A stretch of 13,224 nt of DNA from Pyrobaculum sp. GTDB taxonomy: Archaea > Thermoproteota > Thermoprotei > Thermoproteales > Thermoproteaceae. A program made the translations under genes and the position numbers. The stretch lies in NCBI GenBank assembly GCA_020833205.1, contig JAJHQT010000017.1, forward strand, positions 1-13,224, read 5' to 3'. The notes under the pieces are model-generated. The model did no database searches, was not told where the DNA came from, and was given only the letters and a program-made list of their open reading frames with translations. This document shows, one piece after another, positions 123 to 13,224 of the stretch. Numbering within the stretch: position 1 is the first letter of the stretch; every line of letters begins with the position of its first letter.

Positions 123-452
123 GTGTCCTGCCCTAGATGTGGTTCGCGCGACGTCATGCTTCTTCCCAGTGACGAGTTTGTGTGTAAGCGCTGTGGGCAT
201 AGATGGCCTTTGCCGCAGGTAGATTACTCCTGGGTTGAGGTGGAGATAAAGAAGGCGAAGCTCTTCGAGAAATACATCGACGCGCCTATAGAGAGCTGTG
301 CCGAATTGTTGAGCCATCTGGTGAAGGAGCTCGACGAGAGAAACGCCAGATTGTTGGCGGCTAAGATCTTACTTTTGAGGGCTGAGAGGCGTAAGTTGAC
401 GCAGTCAGAGCTGAGGAAGCTATACGAGGACGCGGATAGGTGTTTTCAATGA
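123..452 (+). CDS. Small zinc-ribbon protein of unknown function
   Basis: A 109-residue protein with an N-terminal zinc ribbon: Cys3-x2-Cys6 and Cys21-x2-Cys24, the second pair in CKRCGHRW. The fold resembles the zinc ribbons of archaeal transcription and RNA-related proteins. Residues from about 40 to the end are predicted helical, charged and leucine-rich, possibly for protein-protein contact. The start is GTG at 123, supported by the AT-rich box at 96-103. The stop codon overlaps the ATG of the following MoaC-like gene (ATGA at 449-452), so the two are very likely co-transcribed and translationally coupled. The exact role is unknown; a link to molybdopterin synthesis rests only on this neighbour. 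Confidence 0.8.
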
Positions 453-1180
453 TAGTAGACATCTCTCAGAAGCCTTCTGTCTATAGATATGCGAGAGCCT
501 CTCTCGAAGCTTCTATAGACATATGCAACACTGCGTCTGCAATACGTGCAGCGGTCAACGCACATCGCTACCTGCCGTTTCTACATCCACTGCCTCTTTC
601 CGCCTCTGCTTATTGCAGAGACGGCAGATTCCACGTCGAGGGGTTTACTGAGTGGCAGACAGGGGTTGAGATGGACGTCCTCTTTGGCGCGTTGGTGGGG
701 GCCGTGGCGTCTGGCGCCTCTGTCTTGAGGAATCTCTCAGTAGACGTAAAACGTAAGGGCGTGGCACAGCCTCTCACGCCGCCGCAAAACACAGAGACGT
801 CTTTTACGAGACATGGTGGTCTCGTGGCGTCTGCATATGGCGAGATGGAGATGAGAAACCTAGAACTCGCCAAGAAGCCAGTGGACAAGGGCCACCCGCT
901 CTATGCGGCTCAGACCGCGGCTGCGCTCAACGTCAAGAGACTTTGTGAGCTTGTAGGAGGCCCCTGCCCTGCGGTGCAACACTTCAAAATAGACATAGAG
1001 GTATTGGACGTACTTAGAGTGTACGTAGTTGTGAAGGCAAGAGATGTACCTCCAGCTCCGGAGGCGTTATTCGCGGCGGGGGTTGCGTTTTTAACTGTCT
1101 GGGACATGACTAAGAAATATGAAAAAGACGAAGAGGGGCAGTACCCCCATACGAGGATTAAGGTGATATCGTTACAGTGA
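449..1180 (+). CDS. moaC: Double-length MoaC homologue (cyclic pyranopterin monophosphate synthase family)
   Basis: MoaC converts the MoaA product into cyclic pyranopterin monophosphate, an early step of molybdenum/tungsten cofactor synthesis. Usual MoaC proteins are about 160 residues; this one is 243 and looks like two MoaC domains in tandem. The N-half has the typical opening MIVDIS, then LHPLPLS (46-48 = HPL) and TGVEMD (71-76), but lacks the family's YDMCK-type motif. The C-half has [20 protein letters not shown] (146-165), which aligns with E. coli HKGDVF...AAKRT, and WDMTKK (218-223), but lacks HPL and GVEM. The active-site motifs are thus divided between the halves. The start is placed at ATG 449, which overlaps the upstream stop and matches the conserved N-terminus; GTG at 440 is an alternative. 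Family assignment is firm; activity is inferred. Confidence 0.85.
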
Positions 1181-3431: not shown

Positions 3432-4361
3432 CTATTTTAACTTGATAAAGACATGGCGCCTACAGACATCCCTCAGCGGACATTGTTCGCATTTCAACTC
3501 TCTACAGTACCTAACGCCTATGTCGTAGGCCCCCCTCTCAAAAAGCACGGGGTCTCCGCTGATCTTACCCACATACCTCACAAGCCCTCGTATAGATTCG
3601 AGACGCAACACCACGTCGCGACATTGGCCTCCTTTTGCTTCGCAAAGCAGTCTTTTTGCGACTCTGGCCTTGACTCTTTCTGCTGAGAGTGCAGGGACGT
3701 CTTCGTATGCCCCTGATCGTAATGTCACAAGGGCGGTGTACATGTCTCCGTGGAGGACGTATTTCCGATGTTCTTGGCCGTAGGCTATCTTAGCCGCCAA
3801 GGGGATGTTGGTCTCGTGGATAAAGAGACGGAGAAATAATCTCACGCCTCTGCCGACCCTGTTGCCGCCTCTGCCGCCGAAAATTATCCTCCGGATGTCA
3901 TTTTCAAAATCTGCTATTTTTTTCTGCTTAACAATCCATAAGTGAAGAAGTTTGTATTTATTATTTACGACGTTGAGCGCCCTTAGGAGGTCGGATACAA
4001 CAGAGTCGGCGACGTCTCTGTCTACGCCGACTTCCTCTAGTGCCTTGCGTAGCTTTGACGCCGACAAGATGTCGTAGATATGTTTCTCATACGCCGATGC
4101 CAAGTTTCTAAGGTTCGAGTCGCTAAGCGGCCTGTGCTGACTTAATAAAGCCACGAGCATCACATACGTTATCAGCAAGTCTAGCCCCTTGATGTTAGAG
4201 AGGTTAGCTATGTATGTATCAAAGTCTCTATAAGTACGCGAAATAGACTTCACCTGCTCCACCAACAGGGCGTAGCTGTGTGGAAGGCTTTCAATAATTC
4301 TGTCGCGTGTAGAGGCTCCGTGTTCCACGATCCTTCTCCTCACCTCCTCGGCGGTCGCCAC
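3432..4361 (-). CDS. Putative HhH-GPD-like DNA repair protein with an Fe-S cluster loop
   Basis: I do not know a characterised match for this 309-residue protein. Its C-terminus has Cys286-x4-Cys291-x2-Cys294-x5-Cys300, ending QCPLRDVC. This closely resembles the [4Fe-4S] loop of endonuclease III/MutY-type glycosylases (C-x6-C-x2-C-x5-C), and is preceded by ERGAYDIGVRYC, which resembles their HQALMDLGATVC helix. Further upstream AAKIAYG (189-195) and LHGDMYTALVTLRSG (203-217) place Asp206 where HhH-GPD glycosylases keep the catalytic Asp (D-x6-[VL]-x2-R-x-G spacing). No clear Gly-Pro-Gly hairpin is seen. The first 140 residues are helical and unrecognised. GTG start at 4361, with a TATA-like box about 24 bp upstream shared with divergent cdd. 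A DNA glycosylase/lyase or a non-catalytic relative is inferred. Confidence 0.72.
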   Translation of the reverse strand: MATAEEVRRRIVEHGASTRDRIIESLPHSYALLVEQVKSISRTYRDFDTYIANLSNIKGLDLLITYVMLVALLSQHRPLSDSNLRNLASAYEKHIYDILSASKLRKALEEVGVDRDVADSVVSDLLRALNVVNNKYKLLHLWIVKQKKIADFENDIRRIIFGGRGGNRVGRGVRLFLRLFIHETNIPLAAKIAYGQEHRKYVLHGDMYTALVTLRSGAYEDVPALSAERVKARVAKRLLCEAKGGQCRDVVLRLESIRGLVRYVGKISGDPVLFERGAYDIGVRYCRELKCEQCPLRDVCRRHVFIKLK

Positions 4362-7343: not shown

Positions 7344-7637
7344 GTGGAAGACGTACTTGTCGAGCAGGTCTTTAAAGACCTCCAGTCTCGTGGGTTCAAA
7401 ATCCTGGAGAGGCTTGGGGATAAGATGTTTGTGGCTGAGAAAAAAGACAAGTATTTATTCTACGTCATGGTGGAGGGCGTGGAGGTTACGGTTCAAACTT
7501 TGTTAAGCGTTATAAATATGGCCGAGACTCTGTCGATGCCTGCGGTGTTGGCGCTTGTAAGCAACGACGGCACGGTGACGTATTACTTCGTGAGGAAGAT
7601 CAGACTGCCACGCAACGTCTATGCTGAAGCTGTTTGA
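7344..7637 (+). CDS. Unknown 97-residue protein
   Basis: The start is GTG 7344 (MEDVLVEQVFKDLQSRGFKI), chosen from the TATA box 25 bp upstream. The frame is open far upstream, but that part is low-quality and overlaps the decayed gene. The predicted order is helix, then three strands (FKILERL, MFVAEK, KYLFYVMVE), then a helix (TLLSVINMAETL), then two strands (AVLALVS, VTYYFVRKI). This layout resembles the core of PD-(D/E)xK nucleases, but the expected E-x-K is not visible, so any relation would be to an inactive form. It overlaps the next gene by 17 bp, so the two form a unit. No function can be assigned. Confidence 0.75.
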   Translation: MEDVLVEQVFKDLQSRGFKILERLGDKMFVAEKKDKYLFYVMVEGVEVTVQTLLSVINMAETLSMPAVLALVSNDGTVTYYFVRKIRLPRNVYAEAV

Positions 7638-7899
7638 ACGACTAATTGAGGCCTCGAGAAGCCGGGGGGTACGCTTCGTGTTGTATTTTGCTAAATGCCG
7701 CGGCAGGGTAGGCATAGACAAAGAGATCAAAGCCTTAGACGAAGAAGGCAAGCCTGCTCCGTGGTCCCGCGTATTCCCCGGCGTCACGCCGCAGAACATA
7801 CTTCAGCAGTGCGTGTTGAAGAAGGTAGAGGTGTATAGAGGCCTGGAGCTTCTTGGCGAATATAAGACTATTGACGAGGCTCTTTCTGCGCTTCGGTAG
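7621..7899 (+). CDS. Unknown 92-residue protein
   Basis: Begins at ATG 7621, inside the last 17 bp of the preceding gene, which indicates coupled translation. The product (MLKLFERLIEASRSRGVRF...) is basic, with a single Cys pair spaced widely (CRGRVG and QQCVLKK). It ends in a helix IDEALSALR resembling the terminal helices of small regulatory or nucleic-acid-binding proteins. I do not recognise the family. It is followed directly by a T7 tract and overlaps the convergent PUA gene by 32 bp at the 3' end. Confidence 0.75.
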   Translation: MLKLFERLIEASRSRGVRFVLYFAKCRGRVGIDKEIKALDEEGKPAPWSRVFPGVTPQNILQQCVLKKVEVYRGLELLGEYKTIDEALSALR

Positions 7900-8326
7900 C
7901 TTTTTTTAGGGATTCTCTAACCCTCACGGCGTACCCCCTTCTTAGGGTGAGCTCCCTGGTGCTGTACATAAGTCTCCCCACTGCTACCACAGAACCGTGG
8001 GGGTCTACCACTGCGACTTCTCCGTAGGGCCTGACTTCTTGTGATGTAGTTACTACATACTTGGCGGGGACGTTACGTCCATTTTTTACATACTCCACAG
8101 CTTCGAAATCGAGGATAACTCGTCTCTCTAGAAACGTGGCGCCGTACAACGTGGGGAGGAGATACCCATCGTTGTTTCTTAAGACGAACGCGAGTTTCCC
8201 ATCTACATATATCCGTCTAATCCTGCCGGATTTGTTGTACTCTACGTCGATCTTACGTCCGCGTAGCTTCTCAGCGGTGGCCCGTCCGTAGATATACGCA
8301 ATTACGTTCATTACAGTAGTGGTCAC
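7868..8326 (-). CDS. Pre-PUA/PUA domain protein, likely the missing C-terminal part of archaeosine TGT
   Basis: A 152-residue RNA-binding protein. Residues about 8-65 (IYGRATAEKL...SGRIRRIYVDGKLAFVLRNNDGYLLPTLYGA) match the pre-PUA (C2) domain of archaeal tRNA-guanine transglycosylases and ArcS. Residues about 71-139 form a PUA domain with GRNVPAKYVV, EVAVVDPHGSVVAVGR and LRRGYAVRVRE. In Euryarchaeota these domains form the C-terminus of TGT and reach the tRNA acceptor end so that G15 can be exchanged. The TGT in this window (11263-12759) lacks them, so this is probably its partner subunit. GTG 8326 is chosen because the shared TATA box lies 23 bp upstream; ATG 8311 is an alternative. It diverges from MBF1. 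Confidence 0.88.
   Translation of the reverse strand: MTTTVMNVIAYIYGRATAEKLRGRKIDVEYNKSGRIRRIYVDGKLAFVLRNNDGYLLPTLYGATFLERRVILDFEAVEYVKNGRNVPAKYVVTTSQEVRPYGEVAVVDPHGSVVAVGRLMYSTRELTLRRGYAVRVRESLKKATEAQKEPRQ
7901..7907 (+). terminator. T-tract terminator after the two-gene unit
   Basis: Seven consecutive T residues begin one base after the TAG of the 7621 gene (7897-7899). Oligo-T tracts are the standard archaeal termination signal. Confidence 0.5.
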
Positions 8327-10566: not shown

Positions 10567-11279
10567 AGGTGGAGTTTAGAGTGTTTAAGCCGGTTGAGGA
10601 TTATGAGCTCTTCATAACTGGATTTGCTGGGATAGGCATCGTCGGCCATTTGGCCACTAAATATATCGCTAAGAACTGCGAAGTAGTTGGAGTGGTTAGA
10701 TACAGAGGCGAGCCGCCTATGGTATCGATAGAGGGTGAGAGGTTGTTGTTACAAAACGAGATTTTTTCGTGTGGTAGGGTGGTGGGCGTGGTAAACAACT
10801 ACGGGATACATGAAGCCGCGGTTTACGATTACACAAAGGCGTTGGCGTCTTGGATAGCTGCTAACGAGTTCAGGGCGGCGGTTCTCTTCGGCGGGCTCGA
10901 CGGTAGGCTTAGAAGAGATGAGGATTTGTTGCGTATAGTCTATACTTCTGCGTACAAGAGAAGCGGCTTGCCCACCGGTAACGCGAAGGTGTTAGAACAA
11001 GGACTGCAGATAGTGGGGCCCCTGGCCCACTTGACGTCGTTTTTGGAGGAGTTGGACTTTCCCGCGTTGGTGATACTGCCGTACGCCGACGTCTCTAGGC
11101 CGGCGGATCCCTACGCGGCCAGCGTCGCCGTCGAGTTCTTCTCACGCCTATTCAACTTCCCGATTGACGTAAGCGGCTTGAGACAGCTGGCCGAGGAGCT
11201 TGAGAGAGAAATTGCTGAGGTGCGTAGGCGGCTTGAGGAACAGGCGAAGAGGGAGGAAGTCTCTAAGCTGTACATCTAG
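10563..11279 (+). CDS. PAC2-family protein (proteasome assembly chaperone-like)
   Basis: A 238-residue member of the PAC2 family, related to the eukaryotic proteasome assembly chaperone PSMG2 and to archaeal PbaB-type proteins. Visible features are GFAGIGIVGHLATKYI (20-35), a typical N-terminal signature, GGLDGR near 115-120, GNAKV at about 140, and LPYADVSRPADPYAASVAVEFF. The C-terminus (about 200-233) is a Glu/Arg-rich coiled coil, QLAEELEREIAEVRRRLEEQ. ATG 10563 overlaps the tfe stop. The gene converges on tgtA with a 17-bp overlap at the 3' end. A role in protein complex assembly is inferred from the family. Confidence 0.92.
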   Translation: MKVEFRVFKPVEDYELFITGFAGIGIVGHLATKYIAKNCEVVGVVRYRGEPPMVSIEGERLLLQNEIFSCGRVVGVVNNYGIHEAAVYDYTKALASWIAANEFRAAVLFGGLDGRLRRDEDLLRIVYTSAYKRSGLPTGNAKVLEQGLQIVGPLAHLTSFLEELDFPALVILPYADVSRPADPYAASVAVEFFSRLFNFPIDVSGLRQLAEELEREIAEVRRRLEEQAKREEVSKLYI

Positions 11280-12759
11280 CCAGTTGAACGAGTTCTTCGA
11301 ACGTCTCGGCCTTGACGACTTTCTTTGCGACGAGTGGAATATCTACGTTGTAGACGTACACCACGTCGTATCTGCTCAGCCACTCGTAGGCATATGCCCG
11401 GCTTTCCTCGTTTTCGCCTTCTGAGTCGTTTTGAGACAGTGGGTAAACCTCCGCCACCTCCTCCGGCACGACGCCGAATATGGGGTCGAAAAACAACACG
11501 TGGACGCAGTCCCGAGCCACGTCTTTCAACACTCTGTACTGCCAACTTCTGTTGTAGGGCTTCTCGTCTACTCTAAGCACGACGGCCTTCTTAGCCGCTG
11601 GCTCGACTTCCATGAGCCTTGCCGTGTGTCTCAGAGGCTCTGGCCGGGAGGAGGCTGTGTCGTGGAAGAAGAGGAGGCCGTGTGGCCTTGGGTGCGTCTC
11701 TGGGTCGAAGTTCTCGAGGAGGCGGCGGTATCGGCGGAGGGTCTGTAGAAATCTGTAGAGCGTGGGGTGGGACCTGGCTTTGATCTCTAGGTACTCCCAG
11801 AGGGTGCCTTCGTAGATTCTTTGTTTTATCTCTAGGAGCTCCTCCCTCAACACGGCGAGGTTGTGCTCGGCTATGAGCACGGCGCGTTCTTGCCGCGGCA
11901 TTTCTCTAAGCTCTTTTACAGAGATGTTGCAGAGCTTTGTGCTACAGGGGAGATAGTCCGTCTTCACGTCGTCGAGTCTCAACGTGCGGTCTCTGAGGAT
12001 TATGCGGTCGTCGCGGGCGTAGAGTATATACGACGCGCTGTCGAAGAGGTCGACCCCCAGCGCCACGGCGAAGGGCAGAATAAGCGGATGCCCAGCGCCG
12101 AAGAGATGAAGCGGCGCCTCTCGAGACATGTTGGCCTTGACCTCGGCGACTACGCCAAGGACCAGGTCGAATCTATACTCCTCGAGAAGCGTGGTGGGGC
12201 TCCCAATTGCAAATATGTGGAAGCCAAGTTTAGACAGCTCGCGGGTTGACCGCATGAGTAAGTCTGTGTGAAGGGCGCCTTGTATAGGCGCCACGACCAA
12301 CATATCCAGTTTGTCTAAAAGCGTAGCCGCCCTCTTTGCCCGTCTCAAAGTCTCCTCTACCTTAACCACGGCGCTGTGATAAGGCTCCTCGTAGTCGAAG
12401 GGGAGGTCGAGAATGACGCCTATGTCGCTTCCGATTCTGGACTGGTACAACAATATCTCGTCGGGGTCTACCTCCACTGTTCCGTACCGCAGAATTTGGT
12501 AGGCGCCTGAGTCTGCCATAACCACGCCGTCCCAGCCAAGTAGCTTCTTCACATCTACAGACCTGCCGCCTGCGAGCCTATAGACGAAGTAGGAATTTGT
12601 GATGACTTGTCTAAAGTATCGCCCTATTACTTCCGTAGGGACCTCCTGCTTTCGAGGGTCTACCACGGGGAACAGCGCCGGCGTCTCCACGACGCCGCTC
12701 TTGGTATAGAGACGCCCTACTCTACCGGCCAAGTCTTTGGCCAAGACCTCAAACGACAT
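11263..12759 (-). CDS. tgtA: Archaeosine tRNA-guanine transglycosylase, lacking the PUA region
   Basis: Exchanges guanine-15 of tRNA for preQ0, the first tRNA-level step toward archaeosine. The 498 residues hold the TIM-barrel catalytic domain with ADSGAYQ (82-88, Asp83), DLPFDYEE (118-125), APIQGALH (157-164) and DLFDSASY (237-244, where Asp240 should be the nucleophile). The zinc site reads PCSTKLC (271-277) with His299 in AEHNL; the usual pattern is C-x-C-x2-C-H, so the middle Cys is Thr274. A C1-like domain follows (about 310-498), but the chain stops before the pre-PUA/PUA domains present in the roughly 580-residue euryarchaeal enzyme. Those are probably supplied by the gene at 7868-8326. 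It lies 14 bp after the upstream membrane-protein gene and may share its transcript. Confidence 0.95.
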   Translation of the reverse strand: MSFEVLAKDLAGRVGRLYTKSGVVETPALFPVVDPRKQEVPTEVIGRYFRQVITNSYFVYRLAGGRSVDVKKLLGWDGVVMADSGAYQILRYGTVEVDPDEILLYQSRIGSDIGVILDLPFDYEEPYHSAVVKVEETLRRAKRAATLLDKLDMLVVAPIQGALHTDLLMRSTRELSKLGFHIFAIGSPTTLLEEYRFDLVLGVVAEVKANMSREAPLHLFGAGHPLILPFAVALGVDLFDSASYILYARDDRIILRDRTLRLDDVKTDYLPCSTKLCNISVKELREMPRQERAVLIAEHNLAVLREELLEIKQRIYEGTLWEYLEIKARSHPTLYRFLQTLRRYRRLLENFDPETHPRPHGLLFFHDTASSRPEPLRHTARLMEVEPAAKKAVVLRVDEKPYNRSWQYRVLKDVARDCVHVLFFDPIFGVVPEEVAEVYPLSQNDSEGENEESRAYAYEWLSRYDVVYVYNVDIPLVAKKVVKAETFEELVQLARCTA

Positions 12760-12773
12760 AACGGAGCGAACTG

Positions 12774-13224
12774 CTACTCTAGATCCATAATTTCGTATTC
12801 CGACAGTACTTTTGTCCTGTCTGCGGCATACCGTGGGCCGACTGACGCCAGATATTGACGTACTATTTTGAACCAGCTGGGCTCCTCTACCGAGTAGCCT
12901 TTAGAGTGGGCGTCGTTCATCAAGGAGATGAGCTCCACGATTTTTGGATGTATCGCCCTTACAGAGCCCGCCGGAATGACGTCTAAAATGTTGTCGGGCA
13001 ACGTTCTCACAGCTTCCTCTAGTTTTGTCAGCCTCCGCCTAGATCTGTAGATGCGTATTTTTCTCTCCACCACGCGTTTACCAGCCTTTCCGATTTTCAC
13101 AGCCGCCACAGAAAGGCCTAGGAGACCTAGAGAAATGGCAGGCATCTGCAAGAGATAAGAGAGCAGAAACGCTAAAAGCGCCGTGAGGAGTGTAAATATG
13201 GCGATGGCCCTTAAGTCTTTTATA
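12774..13224 (-). CDS. Unknown membrane-anchored protein, 5' end beyond the window
   Basis: The frame is open from the right edge to TAG at 12776-12774, giving at least 149 residues. The visible N-terminus carries two hydrophobic stretches, AIAIFTLLTALLAFLLSYLL and AISLGLLGLSVAAVKIG, separated by a short turn. A strongly basic segment (KRVVERKIRIYRSRRR) follows. The remaining 90 residues are mixed helical and soluble, with the positive-inside rule suggesting they are cytoplasmic. A TTG at 13151 would give a 125-residue form, but it falls inside the first hydrophobic block, so the real start is probably outside the window. I do not recognise the family. It precedes tgtA by 14 bp on the same strand. 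Confidence 0.7.
   Translation of the reverse strand, partial: IKDLRAIAIFTLLTALLAFLLSYLLQMPAISLGLLGLSVAAVKIGKAGKRVVERKIRIYRSRRRLTKLEEAVRTLPDNILDVIPAGSVRAIHPKIVELISLMNDAHSKGYSVEEPSWFKIVRQYLASVGPRYAADRTKVLSEYEIMDLE

Follow-up and report, generated by a model that had tools for sequence, protein, structure and literature searches.

A self-fused MoaC in Pyrobaculum and its relatives, probably with one working active site per chain

The window analysed here, a stretch of 13,224 nucleotides from Pyrobaculum sp., carries close to its start a moaC gene (Table 1) that encodes 243 amino acids plus a stop and whose ATG (449-451) overlaps the stop of an upstream zinc-ribbon ORF (ending at 452) as ATGA. 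The Pfam MoaC family (PF01967) matches the encoded chain in two stretches, with 59 bits against a curated cut-off of 27, and the MoaC fold is present as well, so that the protein is a member of this family by both profile and fold. A separate check of each half against the same profile, as proposed in a preliminary description of this DNA, gave 37.5 bits for the C-half and 24.5 bits (E 3.1e-5) for the N-half, the latter slightly below the cut-off. In profile-profile alignment both halves match MoaC, and two confident fold models match it as well; the single-chain model reaches a pTM of 0.94. Sequence matches to MoaC in the PDB are confined to the C-half (2ohd, E 1.9e-17, residues 128-240). The equivalog models are not reached: TIGR00581 gives 52.2 bits against 141.5, and PRK12343, the archaeal MoaC model, is the top NCBIfam match of the protein, yet with 80.7 bits against 171. 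The closest protein match (P0002) shares 98% identity, and the organism-named matches above 60% identity, four in number, are all from Pyrobaculum.

Table 1. Coordinates of the fused moaC gene, its parts and other annotated genes of the window (Ec, E. coli MoaC numbering)
Feature	Position	Strand	Basis
Fused moaC gene	449..1180	+	translation, profile searches
N-half, residues 1-103; MoaC domain without helix-1/KGD segment and without D128-K131 loop	449..757	+	
Arg13 = Ec Arg26; N-half only	485..487	+	
His46 = Ec His77; N-half only	584..586	+	
TGVEMD, residues 71-76; Glu74 = Ec Glu112, N-half only; Asp76 replaces Ec Glu114	659..676	+	
Linker, residues 104-125; without regular structure in model	758..823	+	fold model
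C-half, residues 126-243; MoaC domain with KGH + [16 protein letters not shown], without CHP and TGVE	824..1177	+	
Lys147 = Ec Lys51; C-half only	887..889	+	
Lys163 = Ec Lys67; C-half only	935..937	+	
Glu205 = Ec Glu114; C-half only	1061..1063	+	
Asp219 to Lys222 = Ec Asp128 to Lys131; C-half only	1103..1114	+	
Two archaeosine TGT-part genes	11263-12759 and 7868-8326	- and -	

All residue equivalences follow the numbering of E. coli MoaC. Ten positions (R26, K51, K67, H77, T109, G110, E112, E114, D128 and K131) are invariant in 126 of 126 canonical MoaCs, and they served as the reference for both halves. Neither half of the window protein holds all ten: the N-half has five and the C-half the other five. 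Lost from the N-half are K51, K67, E114, D128 and K131, and from the C-half R26, H77, T109, G110 and E112, with no overlap between the two sets; if five of ten invariant residues are lost per half, the chance of zero overlap is 1/252. All ten are present somewhere in the polypeptide, as is the case in 43 of the 46 fused proteins considered below. The corresponding motifs of the chain are D4, H46-P47, T71-G72-V73-E74-M75-D76, K147-G148, K163, D219 and K222. The preliminary description had named VDIS, HPL and GVEMD in the first half and DKGHPLYA...NVKR and WDMTK in the second, and all of them are found in the translated chain. It had also assigned Asp17, His77 and Glu112 as kept and Lys51, Asp128 and Lys131 as lost in the N-half, and Lys51, Lys67, Asp128 and Lys131 as kept and His77 and Glu112 as lost in the C-half, in agreement with the residues seen here. 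To these can be added that Arg26, Thr109 and Gly110 are kept in the N-half and lost in the C-half, that Lys67 is lost from the N-half, and that Glu114 survives in the C-half as E205 and is Asp in the N-half.

The same polarity is found in every fused protein analysed. This set of 46 comprises the window protein, 36 proteins from genomes and 9 from protein searches, which are mutually related and not independent cases. R26, H77, T109, G110 and E112 are kept by the N-half, and K51, K67, D128 and K131 by the C-half, in 46/46, with zero losses on the tree. The mirror copies are retained in the N-half at very different frequencies (K51 0/46, E114 0/46, D128 1/46, K131 24/46, K67 30/46), and likewise in the C-half (E112 1/46, R26 3/46, H77 22/46, G110 24/46, T109 25/46). 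The single N-half Asp at the Asp128 column is that of P0026, and the single C-half Glu at the Glu112 column that of P0020. E114 is the exception to the rule; it is Asp in all N-halves and has also been lost from the C-half in G010, G011 and G054, where it is thus uncomplemented. Complementarity is much weaker in the 21 proteins of Vulcanisaeta, Caldivirga and Thermocladium and in P0147, whose C-halves have His77 and whose losses per chain are only K51, E114 and D128 (N-half) and R26 and E112 (C-half). In the Vulcanisaeta group the C-half retains T109 and G110 besides H77, and the mirror site lacks the same five residues. One site is thus intact throughout, and the mirror site was crippled early and decayed further to differing extents.

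This allocation can be compared with known MoaC geometry. In the published account of M. tuberculosis MoaC2, an eight-stranded sheet spans the dimer and the hexamer is a trimer of dimers; when GTP is superposed from a Thermus structure, chain A binds it through Lys62, Asp137 and Lys140, and chain B through His88 (PMC3602415). His88 lies in LIPLCHQ (83-89) and therefore corresponds to E. coli His77, Lys78 of helix 2 corresponds to Lys67, and Lys62, Asp137 and Lys140 were assigned by spacing to Lys51, Asp128 and Lys131. For these four residues, the split in the fusion (K51, D128 and K131 in one half, H77 in the other) equals the allocation between chains A and B in that account (PMC3602415). Each fused half has a fold like that of canonical MoaC from Sulfolobus tokodaii (2ohd), E. 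coli (1ekr, 4pya, 4pyd), Thermus (2ide, 3jqm) and M. tuberculosis (4fdf), and all ten invariant residues of the canonical enzymes recur in the window chain. Unlike them, it has two domains per chain, each with half of these residues.

We consider it quite likely that the gene encodes a fused pseudo-dimer of MoaC (cyclic pyranopterin monophosphate synthase), probably the only MoaC of the organism, in which the site at the interface of the N- and C-halves is catalytic and its mirror is dead. Duplication and fusion of MoaC would have put two domains into one chain, and the halves would pack like two subunits of the ordinary MoaC dimer. To the catalytic interface site the N-half would contribute Arg13, His46, Thr71, Gly72 and Glu74, and the C-half Lys147, Lys163, Asp219 and Lys222, with the mirror interface presumably inactive. 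Three chains may trimerise like the usual hexamer, giving three sites and not six. The N-half probably lost Lys51 and Glu114 (and, in most, Asp128) early on, as the C-half did Glu112; further residues of the dead site would then have decayed in several lineages. Duplication with fusion and complementary degeneration was also the reading of the preliminary description, and profile-profile alignment, both fold models, the clade formed by the N-halves (see below), the polarity in 46/46 and the cross-chain allocation agree with it. Residue complementarity alone is silent on whether the site forms within or between chains, so that the N-half of one chain could pair with the C-half of another to give the same single type of site in trans. 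We regard this arrangement as improbable: the single-chain model places the halves confidently relative to each other and the 22-residue linker permits their direct pairing, although both are still compatible with swapping.

The genomic context bears on function. An order survey covered 45 genomes around the nearest of the genomes compared (G001). MoaC is present in 42/45 of them and in 25/25 near-complete ones, and MoaA is found in 42/45; thus the step before MoaC is present. The fused-type genomes of this order belong to two families, one with Pyrobaculum, the Thermoproteus-type genus and a third genus (f1), the other with Vulcanisaeta, Caldivirga, Thermocladium and a fourth genus (f3); the sole genome of a further family (f2, G002) has one canonical MoaC. 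The spacing between MoaA and the fused gene is 0.6 kb in the six Thermoproteus-type (g7) genomes and 1.2 kb in the two g8 genomes. Ten g1 genomes have MoaC; in nine of them the two matches are 5.8-7.8 kb apart, and the remaining one has MoaA on a different contig. The preliminary description had suggested a survey of the Thermoproteales for a second MoaC of normal length. No second locus was found in 24/24 near-complete fused-type genomes (f1 and f3) of the order, where all matches fall at one locus; by analogy, the window organism probably has no other MoaC either. Both halves are under purifying selection; dN is well below dS in the N-half (0.109/0.997) and the C-half (0.152/1.105) for the window protein against WP30, one of eleven pairs compared overall. 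As a separate observation, MoaE (PF02391) has no match in 20/20 genomes of genera g3, g5 and g6, which contain MoaA in 18/20 and MoaC in 20/20; MoaE is either lost or too diverged there.

The fused protein is most likely the working cPMP synthase of the organism, with one site per chain. A protein of MoaC descent that has become a regulator or scaffold, the reaction being taken over by another enzyme, would explain why half of the invariant residues are missing from each half taken by itself, and it has a possible counterpart among the relatives. Six proteins (P0148-P0153), of which one is labelled Conexivisphaera sp. and one a thaumarchaeote, share 36-41% identity with the Vulcanisaeta fused MoaC over 81-96% of its length and look dead: K51 and D128 are gone from both halves in 6/6, and E112 from both in 4/6. 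Both halves of the two that were placed on the tree branch with the Vulcanisaeta group. These six are probable pseudoenzymes, with a MoaC fold and no catalysis. For the window protein such a role is very unlikely, since nine of the ten invariant residues are kept in one half or the other in 46/46 fused proteins, a pattern for which a dead protein would have no need, and no other MoaC was found in 24/24 near-complete fused-type genomes, MoaA being present.

Both halves lie in one intact frame in 35 of the 41 f1 and f3 genomes with a match, single-contig genomes included. The frame is broken in five relatives (G013, G017, G018, G022 and G042), and in G007 the gene is cut by a contig end. In G042, a single contig of 1,841,542 bases, the gene (L072) runs over two reading frames with the break directly upstream of the C-half KGD motif, which reflects either an error in sequencing or a genuine division into two chains. 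G054, from another order of the same class, has the identical fusion type and polarity. When 84,980 species were scanned with a DNA pattern for the N-half hallmark TGVEMD..FG, 24 contigs matched. Two of them encode a single MoaC (L084 and L096) and the other 22 a fused-type MoaC; of these 22, 19 hold the two halves in a single frame, one is broken, and two are truncated by the limits of the fetched stretch. L084 is a canonical single MoaC that already has the hallmark as TGVEMDALFG, and it is possibly near the pre-fusion state. A tree built from 22 N-halves, 22 C-halves and 35 canonical MoaCs joins the N-halves in a single clade (SH-aLRT 100) and groups the C-halves weakly (support 29), several branches being long; this fits a single fusion that was then inherited, possibly with some transfer. 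An origin of the fused gene as a frameshift or assembly artefact from two adjacent moaC copies, as the broken and cut frames and the excerpted remark that MoaC self-fusions could stem from frameshifts (PMC11237513) might suggest, is hardly credible given the 35 intact frames in both families, halves that are strongly diverged and lie apart on the tree, and purifying selection on both.

Self-fusion of MoaC has been recorded before. In the excerpted account of a 2024 survey of archaeal fusions and fissions, MoaC fused to itself on multiple occasions, not limited to certain taxa and possibly by frameshift (PMC11237513). Its cluster 625.1, likewise archaeal MoaC-MoaC, very likely includes the type found in the window; as excerpted, the cluster is described as independent and maybe derived from frameshifts, whereas here an ordered state with fixed polarity is seen in two families (PMC11237513). 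The excerpt contains no analysis of active sites or residues in these self-fusions. The present data argue that in the Pyrobaculum/Vulcanisaeta lineage the self-fusion has been stably inherited and does not represent scattered frameshifts. The excerpt also shows that MoaC-MoaB fusions were already known (PMC11237513), and MoaC fused to what by eye appears to be a MoaB/MogA domain was observed at L054 and L056 (G046 and G047), in frames of 304-311 amino acids.

Large-type PurL, the monomeric dUTPase of herpesviruses and the deoxyhypusine synthase of trypanosomes are fused or paired enzymes that keep a subset of their sites; they differ from MoaC in fold and pathway and share the principle of site loss. 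The principle of one surviving site is thus already known, and MoaC is a new case of it. The fusion is a natural experiment, in which evolution alone divides the invariant residues between the two sides of a shared active site, with R26, H77, T109, G110 and E112 assigned to one subunit and K51, K67, D128 and K131 to the other. Such an asymmetric MoaC allows residues of the working and the dead site to be mutated separately within one chain. It also means that in two archaeal families a fused pseudo-dimer stands where a homo-oligomeric cofactor enzyme would be expected, with equivalog scores far under the cut-offs.

The N-halves of Vulcanisaeta, Caldivirga and Thermocladium carry an insertion, some 30 residues long and with three conserved Cys, directly after the crippled Asp128-Lys131 stretch (21/21; for example L004, L012 and L017). 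The Conexivisphaera-type proteins have it too, with three Cys in five of the six and two in the sixth, and it is absent from the other fused types. A rather doubtful proposal would be that fusion turned MoaC into an obligate three-site enzyme and freed the dead interface for a second use; the three-Cys insertion might then hold a metal or a partner protein such as MoaA, and the Conexivisphaera-type proteins would be non-catalytic scaffolds with the MoaC fold in which both sites are dead.

Elsewhere in the window, the archaeosine tRNA-guanine transglycosylase is split, its catalytic TGT domain and its TGT_C2+PUA part being separate genes about 3 kb apart. Three ORFs have no Pfam match at E 0.001, at 7621-7899 (+), 12774-13151 (-) and 3432-4361 (-), and the last of these carries a CxxC-type cysteine cluster at its end.
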